A DNA stretch of 33,826 nt, from IMG/VR virus record IMGVR_UViG_3300013126_000121, positions 1-33,826 of that record. One strand, given 5' to 3'. Positions 7,589-33,826 of the stretch are shown here, piece by piece; position 1 is the first letter of the stretch, and each line of letters starts with the position of its first letter. Source of the DNA: a virus. The position numbers and the translations under genes were made by a program. A model generated the notes under the pieces. It was not told the DNA's origin and did no database searches. It saw only the letters and a list, made by a program, of their open reading frames with translations.

Positions 7589-10588
7589 ATGTCACAAGAA
7601 AAACTAACAGTATGGCAAAGAATAAGTAAGGCGTTTGGACCAAATTCAACTTTGGATCAACAATCCCCTGTATTTAAATTTGACAAACAAGAATTATTAA
7701 AGACCACTGACAAACAAGAATATGAAAGAGAAAAGTTGGAAGCCCAACAAACGATGTATCTTGGAAAACAATGGCAAAAAGTAGAAAGTAATCTTTATCA
7801 ACAAGCGGTTTATTATGAACCAACAAGACTTGCATCATATTATGATTACGAATCGATGGAATATTCGATTGCTGGGGATACTAAAATCGCAACTCCTGAT
7901 GGTTTTATAACTATTAAAGAATTAGCAGATAAAGGTAGGGATTATGAATTTATCACCTATGCTTATGATCATAACCAAAAAAAGGTTGTTCCTGCAATTG
8001 CAAGAAATGCTCATTATACACGAGATGAAATGAGTTATAAAATCACATTTGATGATGGTTCTCATATTATTGCAACATACGGACATAGATTTCTTAAAAG
8101 AGATGGTGTTTTTGAAGTAGTTGAAAATCTTAAGGAAGGTGATTCTATGATGCCATTTTATAGAAAATCATTTTATAATAATAAAAAATATAATTGGGTT
8201 TATACTTGCAATTCAAAAGAAGGACACAATGGGTGGGTTTCAGAACATAATTTAGTGGCTGAATGGTTCTATGATCAAAAAGTGAATAAAGACGAGGAAG
8301 TACATCATATTGATTTTAATGGGAAGAATAATAATCCCGAAAACCTTCAAATAATGAAAATATCGGAACATCGTGCATATCATGCAAGATTAAATAATGA
8401 AAGGTTATGGGCAAATCCTGAATATAGACAAAAAATGTCTGAAGTATCAAAAAGAACTGGTGAACATACATGGGGAGGTAAAAGACAGGGGGTAAATAAT
8501 CCTGCATATTTAAAACTTTCTTTTGAATCTATAATTGAAGCTGCTAAAAAACATAGAACAATTAATGAAACCGCCAAATCATTAGGTGTTTCATTTAGAA
8601 AGATTCAAAACGAATTGAGGTTTAATGGTTTTAAAAATTGGTTTGATTTTTTAGAAGTTTATAACATTCCAAAATATGTACCTCAGATTGAAGATAGAGA
8701 ATCATTGAATTTTAAAGTTATTCCTTGGGATTTAATTGTTGAGACGGCAACTAAACATGATACAATGAAGGAAGTTTGTGACAGTATTGGTATTGGTATA
8801 CCTAAATTAAGATCTACATTAAGAATGGGTGGTTATAACAATTGGAAAACCTTTAAGGATGCTTATGGTTTAAATTGCGGTGAAAGTGGTAGAAAAAAAC
8901 AAACAAAATTAAATGAAAGTAATGAATTAGTTATAAACCATAAAATAGTTTCAATTGAACCTTATGGAATTATTCCTGTATATGATTTAACAGTTCCTGG
9001 ATATAAAAACTTCGCGACTGATACTATATTTTCACACAATACTCCGGAAATCTCAGCATCATTAGATATATATGCAGAAGAATCGACCACACCAAATGAA
9101 GATGGTTATATTTTACAAATATATTCGGAGTCAAAAAGAATTAAATCGGTGCTAGCAGATCTTTTTAACAATAAGTTAGATGTGAATTCTAACTTACCTA
9201 TGTGGACAAGAAATACTTGTAAATACGGAGATAATTTTGTTTATTTAAAACTTGACCCTGAAAAAGGTATTGTCGGTTGCCAACAATTACCAAATATTCA
9301 AATTGAAAGATTAGAAAAAGGTATGAAATTCCAACCTGATAAGTATTCACAAGAAATGGAAAACGATGCGTTGAAGTTTGTGTGGAAAGAAAAGAATATG
9401 GAATTCAACACATGGGAAATTGCCCATTTTAGATTATTAGGGGATGATAGAAAACTCCCTTATGGAACATCGATGCTTGAAAAAGCAAGACGTATTTGGA
9501 AACAATTACTTTTATGTGAAGATGCAATGTTAATATATAGAACATCAAGAGCCCCTGAAAGAAGGGTGTTTAAAGTATTTGTTGGAAATATGGACGATAA
9601 GGACGTTGATGCGTACGTTCAAAGGGTTGCAAGCAAATTTAAAAGGGATCAAATTGTTGATGGAGCAACAGGTAATGTTGATATGAGATATAACCAAATG
9701 GCGGTAGATCAAGATTACTTTATTCCAGTAAGAGACCCCGCAGCGACAATGCCAATTGAAACCTTGGCGGGTGCTCAAAACCTATCAGAAATTGCAGATA
9801 TTGAATATATTCAAAAGAAACTTGTAACAGCTCTTAGAATACCAAAGGCATATCTTGGTTTTGAGGAAGCAGTAGGAGACGGAAAAAACTTATCTCTACT
9901 TGATATTCGTTTTGCAAGAACAATCAATAGAATTCAAAAGTGTATGATCGCAGAATTAAATAAAATTGCAATCATTCATTTATTTTTATTAGGGTTTGAA
10001 GATGAATTAACAAACTTTACATTAGGACTTACAAATCCATCTAAACAAGCAGATCTATTGGCGGTAGAAGTTTGGAAAGAAAAGATGTTACTATATAAAG
10101 ATGCGGTTGCTCCAATTCAAGATAGTGTCGCACCTGTTTCAGCATCTTGGGCTAAAAAGCACATATTAGGTTTTTCAGATGAAGAAATTAGATTAGATCT
10201 ACAACAACAAAGAATTGAAAGAGCGGTATCCGCTGAACTTACAAACACCGCTCAAGTTATTACAACTACCGGTATATTTGACACAATAGATAAACTATAT
10301 GGTAAGAAAGAGGGTGAATCGGCACCTGCGGCTGGTGGTGAAGAAGGTGGTGAAGGAGGAATGCCAGATATGGGTGGTTTAGGTGATATGGGAGGAGGAG
10401 CTCCACCCCCACCTCCAGGACCATCACCAGGTGGTGATGCGGGAGTAACACCTGAAAGTTTTAATGTGAATGATTTAAATTTAATCTTAGAAGATAAATT
10501 ATTTAAGGAAGTTGATATGGTAGATTTATCAAAAGGAAAAAACGCTTTAGTAGAAATAGACGATAAAATTAAGGAGTTTTTAAAATAA
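7589..10588 (+). CDS. portal protein (T4 gp20-like) precursor containing an HNH intein
   Basis: A 999-residue precursor made of a 607-residue portal and a 392-residue intein. The N-extein (residues 1-92) ends YYDYESMEY. The C-extein resumes at Thr485 with TPEISASLDIYAEEST, the conserved portal helix region. Further on, AHFRLLGDDRKLPYGTSMLEKARRIWKQL, MDVDAYV-type crown segments and RDPAATMPIETLAGAQNL match gp20-type portals. Twelve subunits would form the vertex channel on which TerL docks. The last ~110 residues include a Gly/Pro/Met low-complexity stretch (GGEEGGEGGMPDMGG, then PPPPPG), probably a flexible tail. Splicing is required for a normal portal. The start follows an A-rich leader without Shine-Dalgarno. 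Confidence 0.93.
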   Translation: MSQEKLTVWQRISKAFGPNSTLDQQSPVFKFDKQELLKTTDKQEYEREKLEAQQTMYLGKQWQKVESNLYQQAVYYEPTRLASYYDYESMEYSIAGDTKIATPDGFITIKELADKGRDYEFITYAYDHNQKKVVPAIARNAHYTRDEMSYKITFDDGSHIIATYGHRFLKRDGVFEVVENLKEGDSMMPFYRKSFYNNKKYNWVYTCNSKEGHNGWVSEHNLVAEWFYDQKVNKDEEVHHIDFNGKNNNPENLQIMKISEHRAYHARLNNERLWANPEYRQKMSEVSKRTGEHTWGGKRQGVNNPAYLKLSFESIIEAAKKHRTINETAKSLGVSFRKIQNELRFNGFKNWFDFLEVYNIPKYVPQIEDRESLNFKVIPWDLIVETATKHDTMKEVCDSIGIGIPKLRSTLRMGGYNNWKTFKDAYGLNCGESGRKKQTKLNESNELVINHKIVSIEPYGIIPVYDLTVPGYKNFATDTIFSHNTPEISASLDIYAEESTTPNEDGYILQIYSESKRIKSVLADLFNNKLDVNSNLPMWTRNTCKYGDNFVYLKLDPEKGIVGCQQLPNIQIERLEKGMKFQPDKYSQEMENDALKFVWKEKNMEFNTWEIAHFRLLGDDRKLPYGTSMLEKARRIWKQLLLCEDAMLIYRTSRAPERRVFKVFVGNMDDKDVDAYVQRVASKFKRDQIVDGATGNVDMRYNQMAVDQDYFIPVRDPAATMPIETLAGAQNLSEIADIEYIQKKLVTALRIPKAYLGFEEAVGDGKNLSLLDIRFARTINRIQKCMIAELNKIAIIHLFLLGFEDELTNFTLGLTNPSKQADLLAVEVWKEKMLLYKDAVAPIQDSVAPVSASWAKKHILGFSDEEIRLDLQQQRIERAVSAELTNTAQVITTTGIFDTIDKLYGKKEGESAPAAGGEEGGEGGMPDMGGLGDMGGGAPPPPPGPSPGGDAGVTPESFNVNDLNLILEDKLFKEVDMVDLSKGKNALVEIDDKIKEFLK
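7865..9040 (+). mobile_element. intein with HNH homing endonuclease inside the portal gene
   Basis: In-frame 392-residue insertion, portal residues 93-484. Block A is SIAGDTKIATPDG with Ser1 as nucleophile, block B has GSHIIATYGHRFL, and the C-terminus is VYDLTVPGYKNF...FSHN followed by Thr+1. An HNH nuclease core lies at residues 238-265 (VHHIDFNGKNNNPENLQIM, then HRAYH). It is followed by two similar helix-turn-helix modules at about 311-357 and 376-425, each ending in a FNGFKNWFDF or MGGYNNWKTF motif. They probably recognise the homing site. All splicing residues are intact. Confidence 0.92.
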
Positions 10589-12391: not shown

Positions 12392-13102
12392 ATGAAAATA
12401 TTAGGACCTAATGATATTGGTATGGGTATTCTTATTGAACACGATGCTGGAACAATTAACCCAAAAGACAAAAGAAATCTAAATGTTATAGAAGAGTCCT
12501 ACGGGCAATTAGATCACTCAAAACCATTTGAGTTTTACGCAACTCTTCAAAAATACGGAGTACCAAATAGAAATGGTAGAATATATCCTGAAAAAATTCT
12601 AAGACGTGAAGCGGATCGTTATAACGAAATGATTAATAAAGGTTTATCTATTTCAGAATTAAATCACCCTGAATCATCACTTATAGATTTAGATAGAGTA
12701 TCTCACCTCATCACTAAAATATGGTGGGAAGATAACGTCCTTGTTGGAAAAATTAAATTACTTACAACTCCAGGATTTCATGAAAGAGGAGTTGTTTCAT
12801 CAAAAGGAGATGTTGCTGCAAATATGATGAGACAAGGAGTTACTATGGGAGTATCATCAAGAGGAGTTGGATCTTTAGTGAAAAAGGGAGAACAAAATGA
12901 AGTACAAGATGATTTTGAACTTATTTGTTTTGACCTTGTTTCTTCACCATCAACACCCGGAGCATATCTTTACATGAATAAAGAGGATAGATCAAGATAT
13001 GATGAAAACATTGAACAAAAGAAAGAAAATGAAATTATTTCAAGTGGACTTGGTAAATCTGTTGACTTAATGAAAAGATTATCCGATTATTTGGGTAAGT
13101 AA
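12392..13102 (+). CDS. prohead core protease (T4 gp21-like, peptidase U9)
   Basis: A 236-residue maturation protease, near the 212 of T4 gp21. Family features are GVPNRNGRIYPEKIL (58-70), the catalytic-His region SELNHPES (His92), and the catalytic-Ser region TMGVSSRGVGSL (Ser155 or Ser156), followed by FDLVSSPSTPGAYL. This family forms a Ser-His protease that, inside the assembled prohead, cuts scaffold, capsid N-terminus and internal proteins, in T4 after (L/I)xE. Here the likely targets are the scaffold-like protein at 13479, the capsid protein at 14882 (LINE-A at residues 57-61) and other proteins with N-terminal (I/L)xE segments. Gene order portal, protease, scaffold, capsid is as in T4 (20-21-22-23). 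Confidence 0.93.
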   Translation: MKILGPNDIGMGILIEHDAGTINPKDKRNLNVIEESYGQLDHSKPFEFYATLQKYGVPNRNGRIYPEKILRREADRYNEMINKGLSISELNHPESSLIDLDRVSHLITKIWWEDNVLVGKIKLLTTPGFHERGVVSSKGDVAANMMRQGVTMGVSSRGVGSLVKKGEQNEVQDDFELICFDLVSSPSTPGAYLYMNKEDRSRYDENIEQKKENEIISSGLGKSVDLMKRLSDYLGK

Positions 13103-14881: not shown

Positions 14882-16687
14882 ATGGGAGCATTATTAGAAT
14901 CAGGTCTTGTTGGTAACATCGGTCTTAAGCACCTTAAAGTTATCAAAGAAGATACAATCAACAAATGGGACAAATTAGGATTCCTAGACGGTCTTAAAGG
15001 ACACATCAAAGAGAACATGGCACAATTATATGAAAACCAAGCATCTCACCTAATCAATGAAGCTGCTTCAACCGATAGTTCAGGTTCTTTCGAAACTGTA
15101 GTATTTCCTATCGTAAGAAGAGTTTTCTCTAAATTGTTGGCTAACGATTTAGTATCTGTACAAGCAATGAACTTACCAATTGGTAAATTGTTCTATTTTG
15201 TACCTAAAATTCAAGGATACCAAAATGGTCAAGATCCTACTGCGGGAGGTACACATTTTGCACCGCTTGGTGCTCCAAATGGTCCTGCTTCACAAGGAGC
15301 TGGATATGCTACAGGTGACAAAAACCTTTATGACAGATTTTATGAAGGTGCTGAACCAGCATTAGATCCACCAGGGCTTTTTGATTACTCTAAAGGTAGA
15401 TTCTCAGCAATTACTTCAACTGACGTAACTACAGTTGCGTGGAGTGCTGGTGATTTAGTACCTTCAGCTTACGCAGCAGGTGAATATAGAAAAGTTCTTT
15501 TAGTACTTTCTGGGTTCTCTAACGCAGGTGCTGGAAAACTTATCGGACCTGATGGTCAAGAAATGGATAACGAAGCATTCCTTTCTGATTTACACGTAAA
15601 TGCAGTTACAACTGCGGGTGGAGCATTCTCAGGTGCAGGATCTGGCAACCTATTATTTAGAGTTGTTACTCAAAAATATGGTAAAGGTATCGTTCAGTAC
15701 GGTGTTCAAACACCTACAACATTCCCTACTGATGGAAATGGTGGTTCTTACGATAATATCTGTTCTGCAGATGGTAAAATCTACTTAGAAGTTGATCTAC
15801 AAGTACCATGCGCGTTAGGAGCTAATTCACTTGATGGTTATTCAGGTTTAACTACCACAATCGCAGGTGATGCAGCTGCAGGTACACAATTTACTGCAAC
15901 TTATAGAGTATACGAAGAGTTAGAATTCGAAGACAAAATTGGTGAAGTTTCTTTTGACCTTGAGTCAGTAACTGTTTCTGTTACAGAAAGAAAACTAAGA
16001 GCACAATGGTCTCCTGAATTGGCACAAGACGTTTCTGCATTCCATAACATCGATGCTGAAGCTGAACTTACAGCTTTATTATCTGAGCAAGTGGCAGCAG
16101 AAATTGACCGTGAAATCCTTCGTGACTTGAGAAAAGGAGCCGCTTGGACTCTTCGTTGGGATTACAACGGATGGAAAAGAGGTACTTCGGCTAATCCATT
16201 AACTCAGTACACTCAAAAAGACTGGAACCAAACGTTGATCACAGCTATCAACCAAATTTCAGCACAAATTCACAAATCTACACTTAGAGGTGGAGCTAAC
16301 TGGATCGTAGTATCTTCTGAGATTTCAGCAATCTTTGATGATCTTGAGTACTTCCACGTATCTAACGCTTCTCCTGAGCAAGATCAGTATAACATGGGTA
16401 TTGAAAGAGTTGGTACTCTTGCAGGACGTTACCAAGTTTATCGTGATCCTTACTTCCCACCAAACACAATCTTGTTGGGTCACAAAGGAACATCATTGTT
16501 AGACACAGGATACGTTTACGCACCGTACGTACCTCTACAATTAACACCTACAATGTATAACCCATTCAACTTTACTCCGATTAAAGGAATTATGACGAGA
16601 TACGCGAAGAAAATGGTGAACAACCGTTTCTACGGACGTATCACTGTTGATGGTGTACGTACATTTGATCTTAGAGAATTGAGATAA
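14882..16687 (+). CDS. major capsid protein (T4 gp23-like)
   Basis: A 601-residue HK97-fold capsid protein, longer than T4 gp23 (521). Diagnostic stretches are YENQASHLINEAAS (50-63), ETVVFPIVRRVFSKLLANDL and VSVQAMNLPIGKLFYFVPK in the N-terminal third. Near the C-terminus are VYRDPYFPPNTILLGHKG and YAPYVPLQLTPTMYNPFNFT. The segment LINE-A (cut after Glu60) is the likely maturation site, since gp21-type proteases cut after (L/I)xE and gp23 loses 65 residues. A Gly/Ala/Thr-rich insertion at about 115-350 probably forms a surface domain. Codon use here is the most GC-leaning in the window (many AAC, TTC, TAC, ATC), as expected for the most highly expressed gene. A strong terminator follows. Confidence 0.96.
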   Translation: MGALLESGLVGNIGLKHLKVIKEDTINKWDKLGFLDGLKGHIKENMAQLYENQASHLINEAASTDSSGSFETVVFPIVRRVFSKLLANDLVSVQAMNLPIGKLFYFVPKIQGYQNGQDPTAGGTHFAPLGAPNGPASQGAGYATGDKNLYDRFYEGAEPALDPPGLFDYSKGRFSAITSTDVTTVAWSAGDLVPSAYAAGEYRKVLLVLSGFSNAGAGKLIGPDGQEMDNEAFLSDLHVNAVTTAGGAFSGAGSGNLLFRVVTQKYGKGIVQYGVQTPTTFPTDGNGGSYDNICSADGKIYLEVDLQVPCALGANSLDGYSGLTTTIAGDAAAGTQFTATYRVYEELEFEDKIGEVSFDLESVTVSVTERKLRAQWSPELAQDVSAFHNIDAEAELTALLSEQVAAEIDREILRDLRKGAAWTLRWDYNGWKRGTSANPLTQYTQKDWNQTLITAINQISAQIHKSTLRGGANWIVVSSEISAIFDDLEYFHVSNASPEQDQYNMGIERVGTLAGRYQVYRDPYFPPNTILLGHKGTSLLDTGYVYAPYVPLQLTPTMYNPFNFTPIKGIMTRYAKKMVNNRFYGRITVDGVRTFDLRELR

Positions 16688-16809: not shown

Positions 16810-18525
16810 ATGAAAACCAAATTAAACGAAAATGATATTTCAGAAATAATTGATTTATACCAAACTAAAATACCAAGCACTCATAAGTTGGCGGAAAAAT
16901 ATAAAGTAGGTCACAAAAAAATATCACAAATTTTAAAGGAGAATAATATCGACATCAATAAAAAAGGTGGACAATCAAAAATAGGTAATAGTTCTGAAAT
17001 AGAATCAAGTAAAACAAATCTATATATTGCAAATGATAATTACGAGTTAGTTGCAAAATGTAAAAAAACTAACACCATAATTAATGACCCAAACAATTTA
17101 TCAGGAATGTTGACTAAACATATTGTTAATCTATATGGGGATGTTAATATACCAAAAAATAATTACCAACGAAAAAAATATGAGTTGATTAATGGTAAAA
17201 AATGGTTTGAGGAGTTTTTTGATATTATTGAATTGGAAATAAAACCAACCAGACAATGTAAATTGTGTAAATGGAATACAACTGATATAAATAATAAAAC
17301 GGGTTGTTTTGAACAACACATTCAAAAACATCATAATATAACAATAAAGGAATATATTGATAAATTCCCTGAAGATTCTCACCTACATATAAAATTATTA
17401 GATAAACTACAACGGGAAGTTAAATTAAAAGAAATTGATAATTTCGTTATTTGTAAGTTGTGTGGTGAAAAAATGATGAGTGTCACTAATACTCATTTAA
17501 TCAATAAACATAACATTTCTGTAGCAGAATATAAATTAAGATTTCCAAATGATAAAATAGTTTCAAATAGTATATCAAAGATATTGAGTGATAATGCAGT
17601 ACTAACTAATTTTAATATGTCACCGACTTGGGCATCGAAGGGTGAAACGGAAATACGAGAATTTATTGAAAGTTTGGGATTTGAAACTGAGAAGGGATCC
17701 AATCGTAAATTATTAAATGGTAAGGAAATTGATGTTATGGTCAAAGGTACTAATATTTTGTTTGAGTATAATGGGTTATATTATCACACCGAAAAAATGG
17801 GTAAAAAATATAATTATCACTTAAATAAAACTATTGAATGTAATCAATTGGGTTATAAGTTAATTCAGATATTTGAAGATGAATGGATAACTAAAAAGGA
17901 GTTAGTTAAAACCAAGATTAAACACATTTTAAAGGTGAATGACGGAGTTAAAATTGGGGGTAGAAATGTTACCATAAAAACAATTAATAAAGAGGATAAA
18001 ACATTCTTTTTAAATAATTACCATATTCAAGGATCCGATAAATCAAAAATTTCTTATGGTGCATATTATAAAGATGAATTAGTTGGTGTAATGACGTTTA
18101 ATTCAAAACGAAATATGACAAAAAATAACGACCATGAGTATGAGTTGAGTAGATATTCAACAAAACAAAATTTTATCATAAGTGGGTTGGCGTCGAAATT
18201 TTTAAAACAATTTATTAATGATTATTCACCAAAAAGTATTATCAGCTTTGCTGATCGAAGATGGACAGTAGATCCTGATAATAACTTATATGTAAATTTG
18301 GGGTTTGATCTCGTTTCAATTGTAAAACCTAACTATTTCTATTATAATTCAAAGATTAATAAATACAAAAGATATCATAAATTTTCTTTTGGTAAAAATA
18401 ACATCAAAAAAAAATATCCAAATCTTGATTTTACAAAATCTGAAAAAGAATTAACTGAAGAATTGGGGTTTGACAAGATATGGGATTGTGGATTATTTAA
18501 GTATAAATTATCAATTGACAAATAG
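16810..18525 (+). CDS. free-standing homing endonuclease with Vsr-like nuclease domain
   Basis: A 571-residue multidomain protein. Residues 1-50 form a helix-turn-helix (STHKLAEKYKVGHKKISQIL). Two zinc-finger-like units follow: CKLCKW with H-x4-H at about 149-178, and CKLCGE with H-x4-H at about 215-236, each ending in an EY/FP motif as in MucR-type fingers. A Vsr/EDxHD-like nuclease core spans about 278-380 (GETEIREFIESLGFE, then EIDVMVKGTNILFEYNGLYYHTE). The C-terminal domain (about 385-570) has YGAYYKDELVGVMTFNSKR and SIISFADRRWTVDPDNNLYV, a module I know from phage homing endonucleases and that looks GNAT-like. Vsr-related homing enzymes were first described beside fractured genes with split inteins. 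It lies between capsid terminator and secreted-protein gene and probably homes to that intergenic site. Confidence 0.85.
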   Translation: MKTKLNENDISEIIDLYQTKIPSTHKLAEKYKVGHKKISQILKENNIDINKKGGQSKIGNSSEIESSKTNLYIANDNYELVAKCKKTNTIINDPNNLSGMLTKHIVNLYGDVNIPKNNYQRKKYELINGKKWFEEFFDIIELEIKPTRQCKLCKWNTTDINNKTGCFEQHIQKHHNITIKEYIDKFPEDSHLHIKLLDKLQREVKLKEIDNFVICKLCGEKMMSVTNTHLINKHNISVAEYKLRFPNDKIVSNSISKILSDNAVLTNFNMSPTWASKGETEIREFIESLGFETEKGSNRKLLNGKEIDVMVKGTNILFEYNGLYYHTEKMGKKYNYHLNKTIECNQLGYKLIQIFEDEWITKKELVKTKIKHILKVNDGVKIGGRNVTIKTINKEDKTFFLNNYHIQGSDKSKISYGAYYKDELVGVMTFNSKRNMTKNNDHEYELSRYSTKQNFIISGLASKFLKQFINDYSPKSIISFADRRWTVDPDNNLYVNLGFDLVSIVKPNYFYYNSKINKYKRYHKFSFGKNNIKKKYPNLDFTKSEKELTEELGFDKIWDCGLFKYKLSIDK

Positions 18526-18594: not shown

Positions 18595-18602
18595 TATTTA
18601 TA
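18595..18602 (+). promoter_or_regulatory. putative late promoter element TATTTATA (distal)
   Basis: GTATTTATAC lies 60 nt before the ATG at 18663. It is the first of two copies in this gap. Confidence 0.4.
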
Positions 18603-18626: not shown

Positions 18627-18634
18627 TATTTATA
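18627..18634 (+). promoter_or_regulatory. putative late promoter element TATTTATA (proximal)
   Basis: ATATTTATATAA lies 28 nt before the ATG at 18663. The tandem arrangement with the copy at 18595 is unique in the window and may raise expression. Confidence 0.5.
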
Positions 18635-18662: not shown

Positions 18663-21428
18663 ATGAAACGTTTACTACTACTGTTTTTTATTTTTATATC
18701 ATTTTTTAACTTTGGTCAAATTAGTTATTCTCAAAATTGGTCGACAACAACATTAAATAGTTGGACAAATCAGAATGGGGGTTTTGTACGTACAACAACG
18801 GGAGTTTGTGCAACAACTGGTTCTGTTCGGGCGAACATATGGAGTTCGAATGTTACAGGTAATTTTGCATCACCACTATTATCAGGAAATAATAGTGGGT
18901 TAGTAACCGTATCATATCTCTATAAGATAATCAATTATAGTGGTGGTGCAGCAACACCAAATACCTTTGGTACATTAAAGGTACAGTACGCGAGTGCTTT
19001 GACGGGACCGTGGACTGATGTGCCAAATTCGACTGTCAGTACAAATCATTCACCAAGTACTTCATGTCAAACACAAGTTGTTCAGTTTACGCCAAGTGCG
19101 GGTAATGTGTATATAAGATTTAATGTTGTGCGGTCTGCAGGTGATTATTATATGTATTTTGACGATGTAACAATTTCACAAGGGTCAGCACCATCTTGTA
19201 CTTCACCAACATCTTTATCCTCCTCATCTGTTGCAACAACTACCGCAACAATTTCATGGGCGGCAGCTTCACCCGCACCAAGTAATGGATATCAATATTT
19301 TTTATCAACATCATCATCGGCACCAACATCAGGAACAACACCAACAGGGTCAACCGCCGCTGGTGTCACATCAGTTAATTTATCAAGTCTAAATTCAGGT
19401 ACACAATATTATTTTTGGGTTAGGTCAAATTGTGGGGGGTCTCAATCTTCTTGGGCTGGTAGTAGTACGTTTACTACAACCATACCACCACCATCAAATG
19501 ATTTATGTTCAGGGGCCACTAATCTACCATGTGGTACTTCAAATTTAGCTGGTACAACCGTTGGTACTGTAAGTGAAACCGCTCCAAATGCTTCCACTAG
19601 TGGAACAAGGGGTGTATGGTATAGCTTTGCAGGGGATGGTCAGCAAACTACCATAACAGTTGTGCAAAGTTTAAATACAAGACTACTTGTTTTAACCTCA
19701 AGTACAGGATCATGTGGTGGAACATATACAACAGTTGCAAACGTAGATAACACTACAAGCACAAACGAAACTGCAACCTTTACGGCAAACAGTGGAACAA
19801 ACTATTTTGTATATGTTGGTTATTGGACTTCAGGAACAAACACAGGAACATTTACAATAAGTAGAACATGTACTTCTCCCCCCTCAAATAATAACTGTTC
19901 AAGTGCTCCCGCTTTAACAATAAATTCAGGGACTAGTTGCGGGTCTTCAACAAACGGCACAACGGTAGGTGCTAATCAATCCATTTCGGCATGTGCAGGA
20001 ACAGCTGATGATGATGTTTGGTATTCCTTTGTTGCAAATGGTACAAGTCAAACTATTACGGTTACACCTGGTACTATGTCGGATGCTGTTCTTCAAGTAT
20101 TTAGTGGAACATGTGCTGGATTAACTTCACTTGTATGTGTAGATAATACTTTGGGGTCTTCGGCTGAAACAACAACCGTTACAGGTTTAACAAACGGGGT
20201 AACATATTATGTTAGAGTTCATAGTTATGGAAATGGAACAGGACAAGGTACATTCTCAATTTGTGCCACAACACCATGTTCCACTCCTACCACTGCTGGT
20301 ACATTATCTGCAAATAAAACATCAACTGTTGTAAATGATGGTGTAGTTTATACAACAACCGGTAATGGAGGTAGCATCACAAAATTGGAATGGTCATTTG
20401 ATAATTTTACAACGGTAGCAGGAACTGTAAATAACCCAGCTAATCCTTATACATTTTGTTTGAATGTCCAACAACCAACTGCATACGTGAGAGTAACCTC
20501 AATAAATGGAACTTGCCCAGCTGGTATCACAAATATAGTTTCAGTTAACCTAACTTCGGCACCCCCATACACATATGGGACTAGTTCTGGGGATTATATT
20601 TCAAATGTAACTTTAAACACAATAAACAACAGTTCAACATATGACGCACCACAAGGTTATGATTCATATCAAGATTTTACATCAATTTCAACAACGTTAG
20701 CACGAGGATCCACTTATACAATATCGGCTTCTAGCACAATGACTTATAGTAACTATTCTGGTTATGCTGCATGGATTGATTATAATGGAGATGAGATATT
20801 TCAAGTAACTGAAAATATCATGCAACAACCCTATGGTGCTACTAGATCACAATCATTTACTGTACCTGCCGGAACCAATCCGGGTTCATATAGAATGCGC
20901 GTGTTGTCTTCTTGGTTGGAAACACCATCAACAGATGCTTATTTATCTGCTGGATACGATTGGGGTGAGATCGAGGAATATACCGTAAATGTAACATTTG
21001 GTCTTCCTGTTGAATTAATAACCTTTGATGGTACAAATAAGGATAATAATAATTACTTATTTTGGGTAACTGCGACCGAACATAATTCAAGTCATTTTAA
21101 TCTACAAAAAAGTAGAGATGGTGAAAATTGGGTGACGATCACAACTATAAATGCTGCCGGTTACTCAACAAATACTATTGACTATGATGTTATAGATTAT
21201 AAGGTTGAACCAATTGTAAATTATTATAGATTACAACAATACGATAATGACGGAGTGTATGAAACCTTTGGACCTATATCTATTAATAATACTAATGGAG
21301 AATCTTTAAAAACTATAGTAAAATACGTAAATTTAAATGGTCAAGAAATAGATCCTAATAAACTCGGGTTTATGGATGTTTATATTGAAGTTTATAGTGA
21401 TGGAACTATTAGAAAAGTGATCAAATGA
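18663..21428 (+). CDS. secreted multidomain surface protein (FnIII, two PPC/MAM-like beta domains, GEVED, T9SS-type C-terminus)
   Basis: A 921-residue protein resembling Bacteroidota exported proteins. Residues 1-24 are a Sec signal peptide (MKRLLLLFFIFISFFNFGQ). About 30-172 is a jelly-roll/MAM-like region ending YYMYFDDVTISQG. About 176-272 is a fibronectin III domain (TATISWAAASPAPSNGYQY, then SGTQYYFWVRSNC). Two similar beta domains follow, each starting PPSN and containing WYSFAGDG or WYSFVANG (about 277-405 and 407-540). GEVED lies at about 640-778 (YAAWIDYNGDEIF, GSYRMRVLSSW, WGEIEEYTVNV). From 780, LPVELITFDGTNKDNNNYLF, then NYYRLQQYDNDGVYETFG and a short end (VNLNGQEID, VYIEVYSDGTIRKVIK) match the pre-sorting and sorting region of T9SS cargo. 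Known: T9SS moves such proteins across the outer membrane. Inferred: the infected host exports it to the cell surface. A virion adhesin acquired from a host is the alternative. Confidence 0.85.
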   Translation: MKRLLLLFFIFISFFNFGQISYSQNWSTTTLNSWTNQNGGFVRTTTGVCATTGSVRANIWSSNVTGNFASPLLSGNNSGLVTVSYLYKIINYSGGAATPNTFGTLKVQYASALTGPWTDVPNSTVSTNHSPSTSCQTQVVQFTPSAGNVYIRFNVVRSAGDYYMYFDDVTISQGSAPSCTSPTSLSSSSVATTTATISWAAASPAPSNGYQYFLSTSSSAPTSGTTPTGSTAAGVTSVNLSSLNSGTQYYFWVRSNCGGSQSSWAGSSTFTTTIPPPSNDLCSGATNLPCGTSNLAGTTVGTVSETAPNASTSGTRGVWYSFAGDGQQTTITVVQSLNTRLLVLTSSTGSCGGTYTTVANVDNTTSTNETATFTANSGTNYFVYVGYWTSGTNTGTFTISRTCTSPPSNNNCSSAPALTINSGTSCGSSTNGTTVGANQSISACAGTADDDVWYSFVANGTSQTITVTPGTMSDAVLQVFSGTCAGLTSLVCVDNTLGSSAETTTVTGLTNGVTYYVRVHSYGNGTGQGTFSICATTPCSTPTTAGTLSANKTSTVVNDGVVYTTTGNGGSITKLEWSFDNFTTVAGTVNNPANPYTFCLNVQQPTAYVRVTSINGTCPAGITNIVSVNLTSAPPYTYGTSSGDYISNVTLNTINNSSTYDAPQGYDSYQDFTSISTTLARGSTYTISASSTMTYSNYSGYAAWIDYNGDEIFQVTENIMQQPYGATRSQSFTVPAGTNPGSYRMRVLSSWLETPSTDAYLSAGYDWGEIEEYTVNVTFGLPVELITFDGTNKDNNNYLFWVTATEHNSSHFNLQKSRDGENWVTITTINAAGYSTNTIDYDVIDYKVEPIVNYYRLQQYDNDGVYETFGPISINNTNGESLKTIVKYVNLNGQEIDPNKLGFMDVYIEVYSDGTIRKVIK

Positions 21429-21883
21429 TTAATAATTTTGAACTAATAAAAAGGTTGTTTACATCGGTTATTGCCGTGTTACAACCTTTTATTATTTATT
21501 TTAGTTGTGGTGATCTACTTTCACTTTCGCAAGCTTGGAACACCCCATTACAACCACTTTTTATTTTTACAAATGCTCTTGTTAGTTATTTCTTTTTTGA
21601 ACTTCCTAAATGGAGAATTCCTGCGGTATTTCTATTACTTCTAACCGTATTTTCTGTTGAAAGTTATGGATCAATACATAATATACTTGCAATATTATTT
21701 TTCATTTCTTGTTCCTTTCCATTGTGGTCAATTAAAAGATATCGGTTTTATTTACCAATTTATTTATTATCCATTATTTTTTTAATTTTTGATGGTTTAT
21801 ATTGGATGGAAACTTGGGCAATAATCACCCTTTGTTTTTATCACGTTCACGTAATACTTCATACGTATTTTTTAAGACATTAA
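21425..21883 (+). CDS. polytopic membrane protein coupled to the secreted protein
   Basis: A 152-residue, strongly hydrophobic protein with about five membrane spans, including LFTSVIAVLQPFIIYFSCG, LFIFTNALVSYFFFELP, IPAVFLLLLTVFSV, ILAILFFISCSFPLW and FYLPIYLLSIIFLIFDGLYW, then a final ITLCFYHVHVILHTYFL segment. No known family is recognised. Its start overlaps the stop of the secreted surface protein (ATGA), implying coupled translation and a joint function at the envelope. It is unlike small holins in span number and has no nearby lysis partner. Possible roles are membrane anchoring or handling of the exported partner, or altering phage adsorption; these are guesses. Confidence 0.75.
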   Translation: MINNFELIKRLFTSVIAVLQPFIIYFSCGDLLSLSQAWNTPLQPLFIFTNALVSYFFFELPKWRIPAVFLLLLTVFSVESYGSIHNILAILFFISCSFPLWSIKRYRFYLPIYLLSIIFLIFDGLYWMETWAIITLCFYHVHVILHTYFLRH

Positions 21884-21897: not shown

Positions 21898-22611
21898 ATG
21901 GATGAAAATGTAATTAGAAAAATAATTAAAGAAGCGGACTCAAGTAGATATGCAGGGTATTATAACGGTCCTTTAACTATGGGTGAAAAGGATTGGGACA
22001 AATCATCTCTTGGTCCTTTCACAAAAAAAGTTTCTAATTTTTTTAATGCAGAATTACAATATGATAGTTATGATGGGTCTTTAGATTCACATAAAAAAGA
22101 TAGTAAAAAATTAGAATCAAAATCAAAAAGAATTTCTAAATATAATAAAAAACATCCAATAGCAAATGACGAAGATGGTGGTATTATAAATCAAACACCC
22201 GGTAAAGGAAAAAATATAGTACCAATTAAAGAATGGGTTGAACTTGACAAAATTAATTTAAATGAGGATTTGGCGGTTTGGTTTGGAAAAAAGAAAAAAC
22301 CAAAAGGATCAAAACAACCAAAAGGTCCTTGGGTAAATATATGTAGAAAGGTCGATGGAAAACACCCACCTTGTGGAAGACCTGATACGAGTAAGGGGGC
22401 ATATCCTAAATGTAGGGCTGCCGGTGTTGCGGGAAAAATGTCTGATTCTGAAAAAAGATCTGCTTGCCAACAAAAAAGAAAGGCGGAAAAAAAAGACACA
22501 CAAACAGGTAAAGGTCAAAAACCAATTATGACAAGTTATAAACCAAAAAAGAAAAAGACTCAAAATGAGTCTTTAGAAATTTTAATAAAAAAGATTATAT
22601 CAAATCTTTAA
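21898..22611 (+). CDS. basic Cys-bearing protein with (I)xE N-terminus, DUF5872-like region
   Basis: A 237-residue, very basic protein. It opens MDENVIRKIIKEADSSRYAG: a short amphipathic helix ending IKE-A, which fits a gp21-type cleavage site. Residues ~121-200 hold LAVWFGKKKKPKGSKQPKGP, WVNICRKVDGKHPPCGRPD and GAYPKCRAAGVAGKMSDSEK with Cys at the recurrent positions. I associate this with the phage/viral DUF5872 family, though from memory only. The C-terminus again carries a helix (LEILIKKIISNL). Basic charge plus a cleavable leader suits an internal head protein that enters with DNA, which is inference. It ends in a four-base TTAA palindrome shared as stop codon with the convergent gene. 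Confidence 0.75.
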   Translation: MDENVIRKIIKEADSSRYAGYYNGPLTMGEKDWDKSSLGPFTKKVSNFFNAELQYDSYDGSLDSHKKDSKKLESKSKRISKYNKKHPIANDEDGGIINQTPGKGKNIVPIKEWVELDKINLNEDLAVWFGKKKKPKGSKQPKGPWVNICRKVDGKHPPCGRPDTSKGAYPKCRAAGVAGKMSDSEKRSACQQKRKAEKKDTQTGKGQKPIMTSYKPKKKKTQNESLEILIKKIISNL

Positions 22612-28691: not shown

Positions 28692-29438
28692 TTATTGACT
28701 ATGTATTTTTTTCAAGGTGGACAAGTATAACTGCTTATATTTTTTTAAACAGACCCTTATTTCTTTTGTATTTAAATTAGTCATTTCTCTTAATGAAAGT
28801 AAAACAATATTTTTATTGAACTTATTATTGTTATTTCCAATAAAAATATTACCATAATCATCAAAAAGATCTATTAATGCATAACCTAATTTTAATTCGT
28901 TTTCTGTTAGATTTTCTTTAGTGATATAAACATTTAAATCGTTTAAAAAAATATCAATTATTTTATCGGCTTCTATTTTTTCAAATTCCATGTAATAGAC
29001 CATATCCGGTCTATTTTCTAACGTGGTTGAAATATCTTCATATGAAACTTTTCGGTTCATATCCTTTTGGTCTTTTTGTATTTGACCCATAAGATAGTTT
29101 TTACAAATAGTTCCAAAATAGGAGTACGCCTTTTTATTCTTTGCCGGTTTAAACTTATCAACTTTCGTTATAAGAAAGGAATGAGTATCACGATGTATGT
29201 CGTCATAATTCATGTCCTTTCTATAAAGTTTATACCTTCGAATAATGGACTCGATCATTTTATCTAAAGGATCTTTTAAATACGTATTGTAAATTTCCTC
29301 TTTTTCTTCTTTACAGTCAGACAATATATATTGTTTAACCGCATCTTCCTCACGAACATCAAAATAATTTTTACTTGGTGGTTTCGTCTTTTTCTTTAAT
29401 ATGTCTTGATTGTAATCATAATTTTCAGATAAAAACAT
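28692..29438 (-). CDS. phage sigma factor (T4 gp55-like late sigma)
   Basis: A 248-residue protein with a sigma region 2 but no recognisable region 4. About residues 56-125 read DPLDKMIESIIRRYKLYRKD (core-binding helix), MNYDDIHRDTHSFLITKVDK and FKPAKNKKAYSYFGTICKNY followed by LMGQIQKDQKD. The 'FKPxKxxxAYSYFxTIxKNYLMGxIxKDxK' layout is that of gp55-type sigma factors (KFxP..xxPFAYfTqI in T4). gp55 (185 residues) steers host RNA polymerase to TATAAATA-type late promoters together with a clamp-loaded activator. The window's repeated TATTTATA element is its obvious candidate target. Translation is coupled to the upstream glycosyltransferase by TAATG. Confidence 0.85.
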   Translation of the reverse strand: MFLSENYDYNQDILKKKTKPPSKNYFDVREEDAVKQYILSDCKEEKEEIYNTYLKDPLDKMIESIIRRYKLYRKDMNYDDIHRDTHSFLITKVDKFKPAKNKKAYSYFGTICKNYLMGQIQKDQKDMNRKVSYEDISTTLENRPDMVYYMEFEKIEADKIIDIFLNDLNVYITKENLTENELKLGYALIDLFDDYGNIFIGNNNNKFNKNIVLLSLREMTNLNTKEIRVCLKKYKQLYLSTLKKIHSQ

Positions 29439-30250
29439 TAAACAGTCTGTGGTTCATATTTTATATTTCTATCATTAGTGAAGAAATGCTCTTTTTTAGC
29501 TGAGTCCAACCAAAATCTAACTTCGTCGTCTGTGATCTTAGTGTCACCAAATTTATAATTCCAAAAAATAGACCCTTCTCTCATATTGGTATGCTTATAC
29601 CCAATTCTTGGAATTGTCATAATTTTAACAGAATTATAGGTCAACCTTAATAATAATTCATAAACAAAAGTTAATTTAATTGATGGTTTAAATCCTCCGT
29701 TATTTAATAATGTTTCTTTTTTAATTACCATACCGCTTGTTTGGAAATTTTGATAAGTTAATAACACATCATTAGTTAAATAACCCATTTCAGTTGTCAA
29801 ACTTACTGCAAATGTTGCTTCATTTGTAAAACCAGCAAAAGTACCCTTGTCGTCAGTATCCACTACTAAAGGTAAAAAACAGTCAACATCAGAATATGAG
29901 TCTACATAACGTTTTGCGTTTTTAAACCAAATAGACGAATACTCGTCATCAAATTCTAAAATAGACACCCACGTACTCTTTGATTTAGAAACTCCCAAAT
30001 TTACTTGTGATGAAAAATCGGTCGGACCTTCATTTAAAACTAGTGTCACATTAATCCCTTGAAAATCAAATCCATTTAAAAAATCAACTAATGCGTCTTC
30101 TTTAGAATGTACAACAACTAATTCATTAATGTCAACAGACTGACTTTTAATTGATGAGATTGCTCTTGTGAATAGATCACTAAAATCTCTATATTTAGTA
30201 GATTCAATTGGTAATACTACCGATACGTCAAATATTGTTTTTTCTTCCAT
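29438..30250 (-). CDS. glycosyltransferase family 2-like protein
   Basis: A 270-residue GT-A fold enzyme. It starts with the nucleotide-sugar strand FDVSVVLPIESTKYRDFSDL, then a family-2 loop SIKSQSVDINELVVVHSKED. The metal-binding DxD equivalent is in VSILEFDDEYSSIWFKNAKRY at about residues 97-115. A later acceptor-side segment is TSGMVIKKETLLNNGGFKPS. All core parts of a GT2 domain are present and there is no membrane anchor, so it acts in the cytoplasm. Donor and acceptor are unknown. It pairs with the GT4-like gene upstream (2-base gap) and a GDP-mannose dehydratase three genes further up, suggesting modification of a virion protein, DNA or host glycan. Confidence 0.85.
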   Translation of the reverse strand: MEEKTIFDVSVVLPIESTKYRDFSDLFTRAISSIKSQSVDINELVVVHSKEDALVDFLNGFDFQGINVTLVLNEGPTDFSSQVNLGVSKSKSTWVSILEFDDEYSSIWFKNAKRYVDSYSDVDCFLPLVVDTDDKGTFAGFTNEATFAVSLTTEMGYLTNDVLLTYQNFQTSGMVIKKETLLNNGGFKPSIKLTFVYELLLRLTYNSVKIMTIPRIGYKHTNMREGSIFWNYKFGDTKITDDEVRFWLDSAKKEHFFTNDRNIKYEPQTV

Positions 30251-30252
30251 AA

Positions 30253-31320
30253 TTATAAATTTTCTTCAGTAATTTTTAGTTTTTCAATTTGTTCAGAAAA
30301 TGATGACCTTCTTCCTTCAAAATATTCTCCAAATAATTTTAAAATAGTTTCATTAAATTCATTTTCGTTTTGGTATGTTTTTGCAGTTTCAGACATATTA
30401 ACGTAAAGGTTTTCTGAAATGTTATCCTCTAACCAATTTTGTAAGAAATTAGATATAATATCAACAATTTCAATTGAGTTTGGTGCCCAAATACCATTCA
30501 TTTCTGTCATCCAATCGGGTTTTAATCTAGGAATTGACCCAATAACGGGGGTTCCTGAAGCCATAGACTCTAAAGGAAATGTCCCAAAACCAGATTCTGA
30601 ATCCACCCAAACAGATACGAAAGATTCTTTTAAGAATTTAGAAAAATCTGATTGATTAATTCCTCTAAGATCTCTAAATGTAATCCATCTAAATTGTGGA
30701 TATTTTAGATAAAAAGTTTTAATGATGTTGGCAGTATCTCTAGGATCTCTTGTATGAATAGAAATGATCGGTTTTGATGGTTTATCCTTTTTTGTAAATT
30801 CTTTTGGGACAAGGGGTTGAATAACATCTATACTTACACCTCTCATTATTTCTGAAATATAATTTTTTTGAAATTCTGAAGTTGTAATACATTTGTAAAA
30901 CCCATAAGTCGCCCAATTAGTACCGGGGGATAACGTTTCCAACATGTGATCATATGCCTGACACAATACAATTTTTCCACAAGGAAAGTTCTTCAATTGG
31001 TCCATTACGTGACCATAAAGCTCAGGTACCACAATTAAATCTTCAGGTGATATTTGTAAATTCTCACCTTCAATAGGTTGATGAGGTAATTCCATATACT
31101 CATTACTTAACCATTCACCAACCCCTTTATAATCTTTTGATTCGTGAATAATAATCGGATTATATCCATTATTTTTTAATGTTAATGCAATTTGGTAAAT
31201 GTGTCTTACACCCGCCTTAGGGTTACCTTTTGTGTCTTGTACCAAAAAATAAATTCTGGCGGTTTTGTCTTCTAAGTTTTTAATGGATTGCTCCATTTTT
31301 TGTACTTTTTCTAAATCCAT
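30253..31320 (-). CDS. glycosyltransferase family 1/4-like (GT-B) protein
   Basis: A 355-residue GT-B enzyme. The N-terminal domain begins RIYFLVQDTKGNPKAGVRHI, with VRHIYQIALTLKNNGYNPII typical of the first Rossmann fold. The C-terminal domain has PIISIHTRDPRDTANIIKTF and the GT4 donor-site motif SGFGTFPLESMASGTPVIG near residue 250, where the E-x7-E spacing is kept as E...G in a slightly diverged form. Length is normal for a single GT-B enzyme. It probably transfers a sugar from a nucleotide donor, possibly the GDP-deoxyhexose implied by the dehydratase gene at the right edge. It lies 2 bases from both neighbours within one operon. Confidence 0.83.
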   Translation of the reverse strand: MDLEKVQKMEQSIKNLEDKTARIYFLVQDTKGNPKAGVRHIYQIALTLKNNGYNPIIIHESKDYKGVGEWLSNEYMELPHQPIEGENLQISPEDLIVVPELYGHVMDQLKNFPCGKIVLCQAYDHMLETLSPGTNWATYGFYKCITTSEFQKNYISEIMRGVSIDVIQPLVPKEFTKKDKPSKPIISIHTRDPRDTANIIKTFYLKYPQFRWITFRDLRGINQSDFSKFLKESFVSVWVDSESGFGTFPLESMASGTPVIGSIPRLKPDWMTEMNGIWAPNSIEIVDIISNFLQNWLEDNISENLYVNMSETAKTYQNENEFNETILKLFGEYFEGRRSSFSEQIEKLKITEENL

Positions 31321-31322
31321 TT

Positions 31323-31595
31323 TTAAAGTTTTTTGATTATATTGTTTATTAAAAGTGTATTAAAAGCGATTTTAAACGGAATTGTTAAATTATTAGAATT
31401 ATGAATTCCTAAATTTTCATCCATTTCTTCTCTTTCAGTTAAAATAACATCTATTAAATTTTTGTAAATATCAAATTTTACAACACTTATTTGTTGGTCG
31501 GTTTCGCCAGAAGGGATAAACTCCTTTGATAGATTTACTCTACCCTCAAGTTCTTCAACATCTATGTAATAATTTTCTCCTAAAAATGTTAACAT
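31323..31595 (-). CDS. small hypothetical protein in the glycosyltransferase operon
   Basis: A 90-residue protein. A beta-rich N-terminal half (MLTFLGENYYIDVEELEGRV, SVVKFDIYKNLIDVILTERE) is followed by an acidic loop and a C-terminal helix (IPFKIAFNTLLINNIIKKL). No family is recognised. Its start overlaps the end of the HAD-like gene by seven bases and its stop is 2 bases from the GT4-like gene. Conserved tight packing makes it a real gene, but nothing defines its function. Confidence 0.65.
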   Translation of the reverse strand: MLTFLGENYYIDVEELEGRVNLSKEFIPSGETDQQISVVKFDIYKNLIDVILTEREEMDENLGIHNSNNLTIPFKIAFNTLLINNIIKKL

Positions 31596-32242
31596 ACTAA
31601 TATACTTTTTAAAATTTCATCAAACTCCTTCAACGTCTCTATTTCATATTCAGATTTGATATCTTTATTATAATTTGTTGTATATTTTACAACAACTTTA
31701 TCATTTGGGTAATTTAATAATAGGTTAGGGTTTGATGTAAGTAAAACATCAACTTCGTCCCACATAGAATTAATTGTTGAATTTGAATAAAATTTTACTT
31801 TCTCAAGTAAACATCCAAATTTAGAAAGAAAAAATAAAGACGCTGGTTTTGATTTACCCATCTCATCTGAAACAATTAAAAGATCATAATTATCTCTATA
31901 ATTAAAATACAATTCATTTAAATCGTTAAATGTAAATGTCTCTGTGGATCCTGCGTGACCAAATATTTGCATTGCAAAATCTTCATACATAAATGAATAT
32001 AGTTCATCATCGTCGTTGAATCTAAAATGATCCATTAAATTAAGTGACGTTACATCACTTAGTATTTTATATTCAAACTTTTCTTTTGATACAAATTCTT
32101 CGGTATTTCCTGATATATCAACATCAAAAGTTTTCCCGTCAAAATCATCTTCATCAATCATATGTTTTTCATATAACTGCGTAAATTTACCAATGGTATC
32201 TCTTAAAACCCCGTTAATTTCAATCCCTATTCTCTTTGTCAT
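31589..32242 (-). CDS. HAD-superfamily-like protein with degenerate active site
   Basis: A 217-residue protein from ATG at 32242 (MTKRIGIEINGVLRDTIGKF). A start 7 codons earlier (32263) would deepen the overlap with phoH to 44 bases and adds nothing resembling the fold. The first motif is IEINGVLRD where HAD hydrolases have D-x-D-G. The nucleophile Asp is replaced by Glu and the acid Asp by Asn. Motif II is LLIVSDE, the Lys region is GKSKPASLFFLSKFG, and the last motif VDVLLTSNP lacks the acidic pair. The scaffold is therefore HAD-like (5'-nucleotidase/NT5C type) but probably not catalytic in the usual way. It could bind nucleotides or act as a regulator. It is downstream of phoH in the same operon. 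Confidence 0.75.
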   Translation of the reverse strand: MTKRIGIEINGVLRDTIGKFTQLYEKHMIDEDDFDGKTFDVDISGNTEEFVSKEKFEYKILSDVTSLNLMDHFRFNDDDELYSFMYEDFAMQIFGHAGSTETFTFNDLNELYFNYRDNYDLLIVSDEMGKSKPASLFFLSKFGCLLEKVKFYSNSTINSMWDEVDVLLTSNPNLLLNYPNDKVVVKYTTNYNKDIKSEYEIETLKEFDEILKSILVC

Positions 32243-32960
32243 ATTCGTCAAGTATTTTTCCAATCAATGGGTTTCTTACGTTTTTAGCGTTTCTAAAATC
32301 ATACACACCAATATCATTAACATTATTAAATCTTTGTAATGCATCATAAAGACCCGATTGTTTTTTGTCTTTATACCTATCTGTCTGTTCAAGATCTCCT
32401 GAAATAAAAAACTTACAATTAAAACCAATTCTTGTAAGAAGTAATTTCATTTGATTAGGTGTTGAGTTTTGAGCTTCTTCAAAAATTAATATTGAATTGT
32501 CAATGTTCATTCCTCTCATATAAGCTAACGCAAATACTTCAATAATTTCAGCTTCTTTAAGTTTTTCTCTCGACTCTTTTCCTATTATTTTATTTAATAG
32601 ATAATAAGAAGGGAAAATATAAGGATCTAGTTTTTCTTCTAAATTACCTGGAAGTGACCCAAGCTTTTCTTCTGCTTCAACAGCCGGTCTTACAATGATA
32701 ATTTTTTCATAAGCATTTGTGGGATCCATTAATAAATCAACAGCGGCTTTCATTGATATGAAGGATTTTCCAACACCTGCAGGACCTGAACAAATTGTGA
32801 TTTGATTGTTTTTTAAAATGTTATAATACTCTTCTTGGTTTGGTGATAAGAATTTATTTTTTTGTTTCTTTTTAATAACCGCATTTATAAAATCCTTTTT
32901 TGAAAAGGGTTTACTTTCGGTTTCCTCAGTTTGTTGAGGTTGTGGTTTTCTTTTTGTCAT
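32220..32960 (-). CDS. phoH: PhoH-like ATPase
   Basis: A 246-residue P-loop ATPase. NQEEYYNILKNNQITICSGP leads into Walker A GPAGVGKS (59-66). IIIVRPAVEAEEKLGSLPGN is the PhoH-specific strand-loop. Walker B is SILIFEEAQN (E161/E162), followed by KLLLTRIGFNCKFFISGDLE and QTDRYKDKKQSGL, the sensor I and late PhoH motifs. The length matches phage PhoH proteins. The N-terminal ~35 residues are charged and probably disordered. Phage PhoH is widespread in marine and other T4-like phages. It has RNA-helicase-type features, but its role in infection is unresolved. It sits one base from the sugar dehydratase stop and overlaps the HAD-like gene. Confidence 0.95.
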   Translation of the reverse strand: MTKRKPQPQQTEETESKPFSKKDFINAVIKKKQKNKFLSPNQEEYYNILKNNQITICSGPAGVGKSFISMKAAVDLLMDPTNAYEKIIIVRPAVEAEEKLGSLPGNLEEKLDPYIFPSYYLLNKIIGKESREKLKEAEIIEVFALAYMRGMNIDNSILIFEEAQNSTPNQMKLLLTRIGFNCKFFISGDLEQTDRYKDKKQSGLYDALQRFNNVNDIGVYDFRNAKNVRNPLIGKILDEYDKENRD

Positions 32961-32961
32961 A

Positions 32962-33826
32962 TTATACAGTAATAGTGTTATGTGAATTTAATTTAATCAT
33001 CCACCCATCAATCATATCATCCATTAGGGTTTCAAAGGTATATTCAGGTTCCCATCCTAATGTCGTTCTAATTTTTGTGGAGTCCCCTTTAAGGTATTTA
33101 AGTTCTTCTGCCCTTAAAAATTTTTCATTTTGAGTAACATATTTTGTGTAATCTAAATCTAATTTTTTAAATACATACTCAACCATTTCCCTTACAGAAT
33201 GTGTTGTCATTGTTGACACAACAAAATCATCGGCCTTTTCATAATTTATTATCTTATGCATTGCCTTCACATAATCTTTTGAATGACCCCAATCCCTATA
33301 TGAATCCATATTACCCAATTCTAACTTATCTGTTAAACCTAATTTTATTTCAACTGCGGTTTTTACCACTTTATTAGTAACAAAATTAGACCCTCTTCTT
33401 GGTGATTCGTGATTAAATAATATTCCGTTACACACATGTAAATTATATGCATTTCTATAGTTTCTTACAATGTTATATGCGAATACTTTTGAACATCCAT
33501 ACGGACTTACTGGATTCATAGGTGTAGTTTCTCTTTGGAAACCGTCAATATCCACAGAATTACCAAACATTTCAGATGAACTCGCTTGATAAAATTTAGC
33601 AGTTGGGCAAGATCTTCTATATGCTTCTAAAATATTTAAAACACCTAATGAATTTGTTTGAACTGTAAATTGTGGAATATCAAAACTAACCCTAACGTGA
33701 CTCTGAGCTGCTAAATTATATATCTCATCTGGTTGAATCTGATCTAATAGTTTTTCAATACCCCCTTGGTCTAATAAATCACCATAATGAATATTTAATT
33801 TATTTCTTACATCATCGGTGAATCTG
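32962..33826 (-). CDS. gmd: GDP-mannose 4,6-dehydratase, N-terminus cut by window edge
   Basis: The minus-strand frame is open to the right edge and stops at 32962, giving 287 codons of an enzyme usually 340-370 residues long. An internal ATG at 33570 is not the start: coding continues upstream with DEIYNLAAQSHVRVSFDIPQ and FYQASSSEMFGN. These are the NADP-binding/substrate strands and the catalytic Ser/Thr-Glu loop of GMD. Further on, SPYGCSKVFAYN holds the catalytic Tyr-x3-Lys, and NHESPRRGSNFV and YRDWGHSKDYVKAM are the GMD fingerprints. It converts GDP-mannose to GDP-4-keto-6-deoxymannose, a precursor of GDP-fucose, rhamnose or perosamine. A glycosyltransferase pair downstream may use the product. 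The last 50 residues include LKYLKGDSTKIRTTLGWEPE, normal for the family. Confidence 0.95.
   Translation of the reverse strand, partial: RFTDDVRNKLNIHYGDLLDQGGIEKLLDQIQPDEIYNLAAQSHVRVSFDIPQFTVQTNSLGVLNILEAYRRSCPTAKFYQASSSEMFGNSVDIDGFQRETTPMNPVSPYGCSKVFAYNIVRNYRNAYNLHVCNGILFNHESPRRGSNFVTNKVVKTAVEIKLGLTDKLELGNMDSYRDWGHSKDYVKAMHKIINYEKADDFVVSTMTTHSVREMVEYVFKKLDLDYTKYVTQNEKFLRAEELKYLKGDSTKIRTTLGWEPEYTFETLMDDMIDGWMIKLNSHNTITV

Follow-up and report, generated by a model that had tools for sequence, protein, structure and literature searches.

A capsid-linked locus of T4-like phages encodes a modular protein likely exported by the type IX secretion system of its presumed Bacteroidota hosts

Phage-encoded cargo of the type IX secretion system (T9SS) is known from Cryophage, for which superinfection exclusion was suggested as a purpose and competition is listed as an alternative (Bellas et al. 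2020, PMC7468147). Here we describe a locus of T4-like phages found in a 33.8 kb viral fragment from IMG/VR (record IMGVR_UViG_3300013126_000121, positions 1 to 33,826; this whole stretch is called the window below). The presumed hosts are Bacteroidota, and the locus combines a gene for a modular exported protein with a gene for a membrane protein, downstream of the major capsid gene. Cryophage likewise carries genes with T9SS sorting domains that vary between variants. However, these are canonical type A domains on endoglucanase, GH39 and PA14 proteins, and the passages drawn on here describe no capsid-linked locus, short C-terminal domain (CTD) or membrane partner (PMC7468147).

Other described systems resemble the locus in single features. 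The cultured Flavobacterium phage immuto (host LMO8), also T4-like, encodes a protein with a Q-type signal peptide and a type A T9SS CTD (immuto35A_15, QQO91933.1; MW353176 12691-13422; L235 and L233; TIGR04183 E=2.9e-13), annotated only as 'cohesin domain-containing protein'. It differs from the window protein by its cohesin-type domain, its canonical CTD and its distance from the capsid gene. Function-unassigned proteins of P. gingivalis phages also obey the Bacteroidota Q-rule; however, these phages are temperate and oral, and a T9SS domain is not mentioned there (PMC10367356). The Q-rule refers to a Gln at the new N-terminus (PMC5837995, PMC10653852). Short CTDs are known from one species, P. 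intermedia, and not from phages or Flavobacteriales. They are 40-55 aa long with three strands, retain motifs B, D and E with a shortened B-D stretch, and their cleavage and glycosylation have been shown (Ye et al. 2025, PMC11969387); their binding to PorV has been modelled. T9SS CTDs may be specific to a species (PMC11285876). Finally, phage-selected gld/spr mutations confer phage resistance on F. columnare (PMC9233685), and phages of such hosts therefore depend on this surface machinery. Compared with these systems, the new features are a lineage-wide capsid-linked locus, a short CTD in Flavobacteriales and phages, a tightly coupled membrane gene and an association with subtilases.

The two genes and the parts of the exported protein, including its fibronectin type III (FnIII) domains, are as follows:

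18663..21428, plus strand, exported modular protein (SEC), 921 aa, T9SS-cargo-like
18663..18716, plus strand, Sec signal peptide, aa 1-18 (MKRLLLLFFIFISFFNFG), Q-rule pattern in relatives
19203..19457, plus strand, FnIII domain, aa 181-265 (Pfam fn3, PF00041, E=2.5e-8)
19488..19874, plus strand, beta domain 1, about aa 276-404 (39% identity to beta domain 2, E=2e-11)
19887..20261, plus strand, beta domain 2, GBD_T9SS_assoc-like, aa 409-533 (PF23759, 26.9 bits)
20763..20990, plus strand, GEVED domain, aa 701-776 (PF20009, E=1.5e-14)
21003..21296, plus strand, FnIII-like 'LPVEL' domain, aa 781-878 (AlphaFold2 (AF2) model, structure alignment)
21309..21425, plus strand, compact C-terminal tail, aa 883-921, short T9SS CTD-like sorting domain (likely)
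21425..21883, plus strand, six-helix membrane protein (helices predicted), 152 aa, translationally coupled (ATGA)

Both open reading frames (ORFs) had been recognized in a preliminary description made from the letters of the window, and their ATGA overlap, the FnIII domain, the two related beta domains and the GEVED domain that it named were all recovered. The second beta domain falls 0.1 short of the PF23759 cut-off of 27 bits, which the corresponding GBD_T9SS_assoc match of a relative (L006) exceeds. The AF2 model of the 'LPVEL' domain contains seven strands (overall pLDDT 88) and reaches VIA-align Z scores up to 12.3, with FnIII chains at about 11.

In INPHARED the family hardly shows up: a whole-protein search of annotated phages matched only four uncultured huge phages, and IMG/VR was therefore needed for the survey. 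In scans of this database the whole protein was matched in 13 loci, its C-terminal 141 residues in 96 loci, of which 80 were kept, and the membrane protein in 39. Many of these contigs are near-duplicates, so that locus counts do not represent independent events. Signal peptides were called by a simple pattern, a Sec signal with Gln at the cleavage site. This pattern is present in 74 of 76 full-length viral relatives. Of the 575 remaining ORFs in these loci, 30 have it, and many of these 30 themselves end in CTD-like sequences. The signal peptide is therefore not a chance match, which bears out the one proposed earlier. In the window protein, cleavage is predicted between FNFG and QIS, with Gln19 as the predicted new N-terminus. 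Behind the signal peptide, relatives carry at least 12 types of N-terminal module, CUB domains among them, mutually without detectable similarity, and the Q-rule signal peptides are kept despite this diversity. The export signals at both ends are constant and the middle is exchanged. Between the window and L006, the capsid proteins are 95% identical; the exported proteins share 66% identity over residues 122-921 and their first 121 residues are unrelated. They are thus about as far apart as the products of the two most rapidly diverging genes in the minus-strand cluster (68-69%).

The same gene recurs near a capsid gene in many related phages (43 of the 80 IMG/VR loci), the capsid gene lying nearly always upstream, and a homologue of the window gene 21898-22611 follows in most of these 43. 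Some relatives are located far from capsid genes. A second compact-tail group (L041, L035, L039, L042-L048 and L069) has another N-terminal module and is not linked to the capsid gene; its members are found in phage-like parts of contigs that reach 292 kb. The adjacency to gp23 in the 43 loci and the Ig/FnIII-type domains could indicate a virion protein, that is, a Hoc-like head decoration or a fibre whose N-terminal hydrophobic stretch is incidental or removed in assembly. It evolves fast, in the manner of receptor-binding proteins, and at that position immuto encodes a different protein with beta repeats, for which no clear signal peptide is seen. However, such an origin does not agree with a Q-rule signal peptide conserved across 12 N-terminal module types, with a C-terminal tag common to bacterial exported proteins or with the position of those relatives that are far from capsid genes. 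Neither does the exported protein match any PHROG family, nor is any relative annotated or placed as a tail fibre. A virion protein is very unlikely.

The second export signal is the compact tail. It is about 39-45 aa long and ends 74 of the 80 viral relatives, a type A-like CTD occupying the same position in 6 of the 80. Two relatives, L085 and L049, are 94.8% identical over their first 538 residues and have exchanged the C-terminal cassette (compact tail versus type A-like CTD). L013, whose contig is shared with L085, matches PF18962 at E=9e-4, short of the curated cut-off. The AF2 model of the tail shows three strands (model positions 105-109, 126-131 and 136-140). In a profile alignment with type A CTDs (TIGR04183, PF18962), which have the same C-terminal place, the conserved glycines are in register across a gap (single-comparison P=7e-4). 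Type A CTDs differ in their length of 70-80 residues and their PNP motif; the tail of the window protein is about 39 residues long, and neither model recognizes it. Among the closest counterparts are the P. intermedia short CTDs. Judged by layout and motifs as described for that species, both are C-terminal tails (about 40-55 aa in P. intermedia) with a single sheet of three predicted strands, conserved Gly, GxY-like and basic motifs, and in both cases they coexist with long CTDs (PMC11969387).

This tail is not restricted to phages. Three Flavobacteriales genomes contain 13, 14 and 5 copies, and each encodes SprA and more than 100 type A CTDs, so that the tag is found in T9SS-positive genomes. 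Matches occur in 90 of 150 genomes of one Flavobacteriales family and in 134 of 299 genomes of the order, one genome match being circular because one row of the tail alignment (L105) is bacterial. Among 20 bacterial tail proteins inspected, the protein ends 0-10 residues past the match and most intact ones have a signal peptide. A phage-specific tail was considered and rejected, since L105 is a stretch of bacterial chromosome (ClpP/ClpX nearby) and some Flavobacteriales commonly carry the tail. A phylum-wide sample contained it in 1 of 395 genomes, at odds with the 134 of 299 in the order; this sample may hold few genomes of the tail-bearing order, and we therefore claim no prevalence for the phylum. 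Together, the exchange of CTDs, the use as a C-terminal tag in Flavobacteriales, the three-stranded model and the in-register profile alignment point to the compact tail as a likely short sorting domain of the T9SS.

Several points weigh against an exported T9SS cargo with a membrane partner. The window protein has no match, even at E=1, to the NCBIfam/Pfam T9SS CTD models (TIGR04183/PF18962 and TIGR04131/PF13585) and is therefore not filed as type A or B cargo; only some relatives match type A/B models. The profile comparison of the tail with type A CTDs is weak on its own (probability 27%), and a PDB sequence search with the C-terminal profile returned chance-level matches only. The exported gene occurs without its membrane partner in several loci (e.g. 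L064, L011 and L036). In addition, the T9SS needs an energised envelope and export must therefore precede lysis. The missing profile match and the modest profile-profile support, together with the coupled inner-membrane protein, would suit a tail that is not a T9SS signal, in a protein exported by Sec, retained in the periplasm or outer membrane and acting in lysis or envelope stress with the membrane protein. This alternative, which we consider unlikely, does not account for the type A-like CTD exchanged between near-identical proteins or for a layout like that of the proven P. intermedia short CTDs; moreover, the tested tail-bearing genomes encode SprA, and no spanin or holin similarity was seen. 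The preliminary description had read the C-terminus as a T9SS CTD. That reading lacks a standard profile match but holds for the type A-like layout and for the replacement of the tail by a type A-like CTD in relatives. Among the findings that it named as speaking against it is a missing T9SS profile match combined with a gene common as a tail fibre in related phages. The first half applies to this copy, and the second does not, as no relative has such an annotation or placement. The first half counts for less because standard profiles miss the short CTD class. Its core proposal was a phage-borne protein exported in the T9SS manner and coupled to a membrane protein, rather than a typical fibre. 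It withstood all tests that could be applied and is supported by export signals kept at both ends around a swapped middle.

For the membrane protein, six helices are predicted instead of the five or so first described, with a clean positive-inside topology in which loops 1, 3 and 5 carry no K/R; its ATGA coupling and polytopic nature stand. In all 35 loci inspected (many of them near-duplicate contigs) the membrane gene starts within four bases of the end of the compact-tail gene. Conserved polar residues lie mostly in predicted periplasmic loops (SQxWxTPLQP, ETW), a pattern compatible with contact to the exported protein and no more. The window copy belongs to no Pfam family, and one relative gives a weak Frag1 match (E=0.03). 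Neither a Foldseek match at E<=0.001 in PDB or BFVD nor a sequence relative in PDB was found, and the 150 genomes examined from the host-like family contain no intact relative. PADLOC gave no match. One genome of this family contains a weak, stop-interrupted match (L191, G473:C134:4887-5105, E=4e-4), perhaps a phage remnant.

Subtilase (Peptidase_S8) genes are located near the exported gene in 19 of the 80 loci. All that were inspected start with a Q-rule signal peptide, and some also carry a type A CTD or SprB repeats:

L053, 4755-6209, phage subtilase
L031, 4243-6267, phage subtilase
L054, 1503-3554, phage subtilase
L085, 4583-6142, phage subtilase
L103, 4002-5513, phage subtilase

L054 carries a row of five ORFs with Q-rule export signals, a member of the family among them, an arrangement reminiscent of an island of exported proteins next to the capsid gene. 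No subtilase gene is present in the window. The four uncultured phages, of 462-642 kb (L002-L005: LR745206, LR756502, LR756504 and LR756500), each encode 1-3 proteins with a type A CTD, and LR745206 additionally has a compact tail.

The surroundings of the locus place the window in the T4-like gp23 lineage, with terminase, gp20-type portal, protease and gp23-type capsid genes in order:

5774-7543, large terminase
7589-10588, portal
12392-13102, prohead protease
14882..16687, plus strand, major capsid protein gp23, T4 type, upstream anchor of the locus (Pfam Gp23, E=3.1e-72)
16810..18525, plus strand, homing endonuclease gene between the capsid gene and the exported gene (phrog_3339, E=1.3e-84)
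18595..18602, plus strand, TATTTATA motif, candidate phage promoter element (upstream-of-start enrichment)
18627..18634, plus strand, second TATTTATA motif, candidate promoter element (upstream-of-start enrichment)
21898..22611, plus strand, conserved downstream gene, far-end marker of the locus (recurs 3' of SEC in most capsid-linked loci)

The homing endonuclease gene is an insertion outside the function of the locus, and L006 retains a remnant of it (aa 529-569). Residues 94-484 of the portal ORF (window 7868-9040) match HNH endonucleases, and exactly that stretch is missing in L006 and L018; it is probably an HNH-bearing intein. The minus strand (29438-33570) encodes two glycosyltransferases (29438-30250 and 30253-31320), PhoH (32220-32960) and a partial GDP-mannose 4,6-dehydratase (32962-33570), that is, sugar-modifying functions near the exported protein gene.

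Tandem late-type promoters had been proposed upstream of the exported gene. The T4 late promoter core TATAAATA was rejected as a promoter here, none of its 13 copies in the window lying upstream of a same-strand gene. Of the 13 window copies of its reverse complement, TATTTATA, 8 lie no more than 80 nt before the start of a gene on the same strand, positions that together make up 3.4% of the space, and two of these 8 precede the exported gene. Positions include 2492, 3278, 10593, 16790, 18595, 18627 and 21886 (+), a few to tens of bases before starts. TATTTATA is a candidate promoter that would give very short leaders. Among relatives, 22 of 77 have one upstream copy and none has two. What remains of the proposal is two TATTTATA candidates before the gene; the tandem arrangement is not conserved.

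The window and its relatives show a phage gene with host-type export tags at both ends and a conserved linkage. Since the protein bears both tags of the host T9SS pathway, the infected cell probably decorates its own surface or surroundings with it; judged from sequence, surface export is likely. Passage through the T9SS, surface display or release, and late expression would follow from these features. The protein would first be exported by Sec with Q-rule cleavage, a step strongly supported by sequence. The host T9SS would then recognize the short CTD and pass the protein through SprA to the surface or medium, which is well supported by comparison. The conservation pattern and domain types suggest that the conserved C-terminal part sorts the protein and that the exchangeable N-terminal modules (CUB, galactose-binding-like and FnIII-type) are exposed to the outside. 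Taken jointly, we hold these three steps to be probable. The coupled six-helix inner-membrane protein may be an optional helper of the exported protein.

The purpose of such export is more tentative. Once displayed or released, late in infection, the protein might mask, replace or compete with host T9SS-exported adhesins that phages need, so that superinfection and the re-adsorption of progeny to spent cells would be blocked. In sister phages, a nearby subtilase with T9SS-like features could serve the same purpose by trimming proteins of the surface. We regard this masking as conceivable, at less than even chances. The adhesin and carbohydrate-binding-type domains, and the subtilases and SprB-repeat proteins nearby, would suit a T9SS-exported protein serving aggregation or adhesion of infected cells, virion exit or sticking to debris, antagonism of neighbours, or jamming of the T9SS by flooding; competition is also an alternative listed in the Cryophage report (PMC7468147). 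Nothing decisive stands against such other purposes, and we consider them a serious possibility, somewhat short of even. Adhesion, aggregation, competition or T9SS jamming, taken together, appear about as likely as the masking or replacement of adhesins. A wider proposal, which we put forward only tentatively, is that T4-lineage phages of Bacteroidota possess a dedicated capsid-linked surface-remodelling locus that takes over the host T9SS late in infection against competing phages. Its components would be a rapidly re-assorted short-tag adhesin, a private six-helix partner acting with it at the inner membrane and, optionally, T9SS-tagged subtilases and SprB-repeat proteins.

These observations suggest that a whole phage lineage routinely sends its own proteins outside the cell via the host secretion system, from a locus at the side of the capsid gene. 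They also indicate a wide distribution among Flavobacteriales of the short T9SS CTD, which had so far been reported from a single species of Prevotella and which escapes the standard models; many bacterial and viral T9SS cargo proteins are therefore probably unannotated. The genes described here and the cargo gene of the cultured phage immuto provide concrete material for studying how phages of Bacteroidota, a phylum in which sensitivity to phages already depends on T9SS and gliding genes, keep out competitors or control the surface of the cell.

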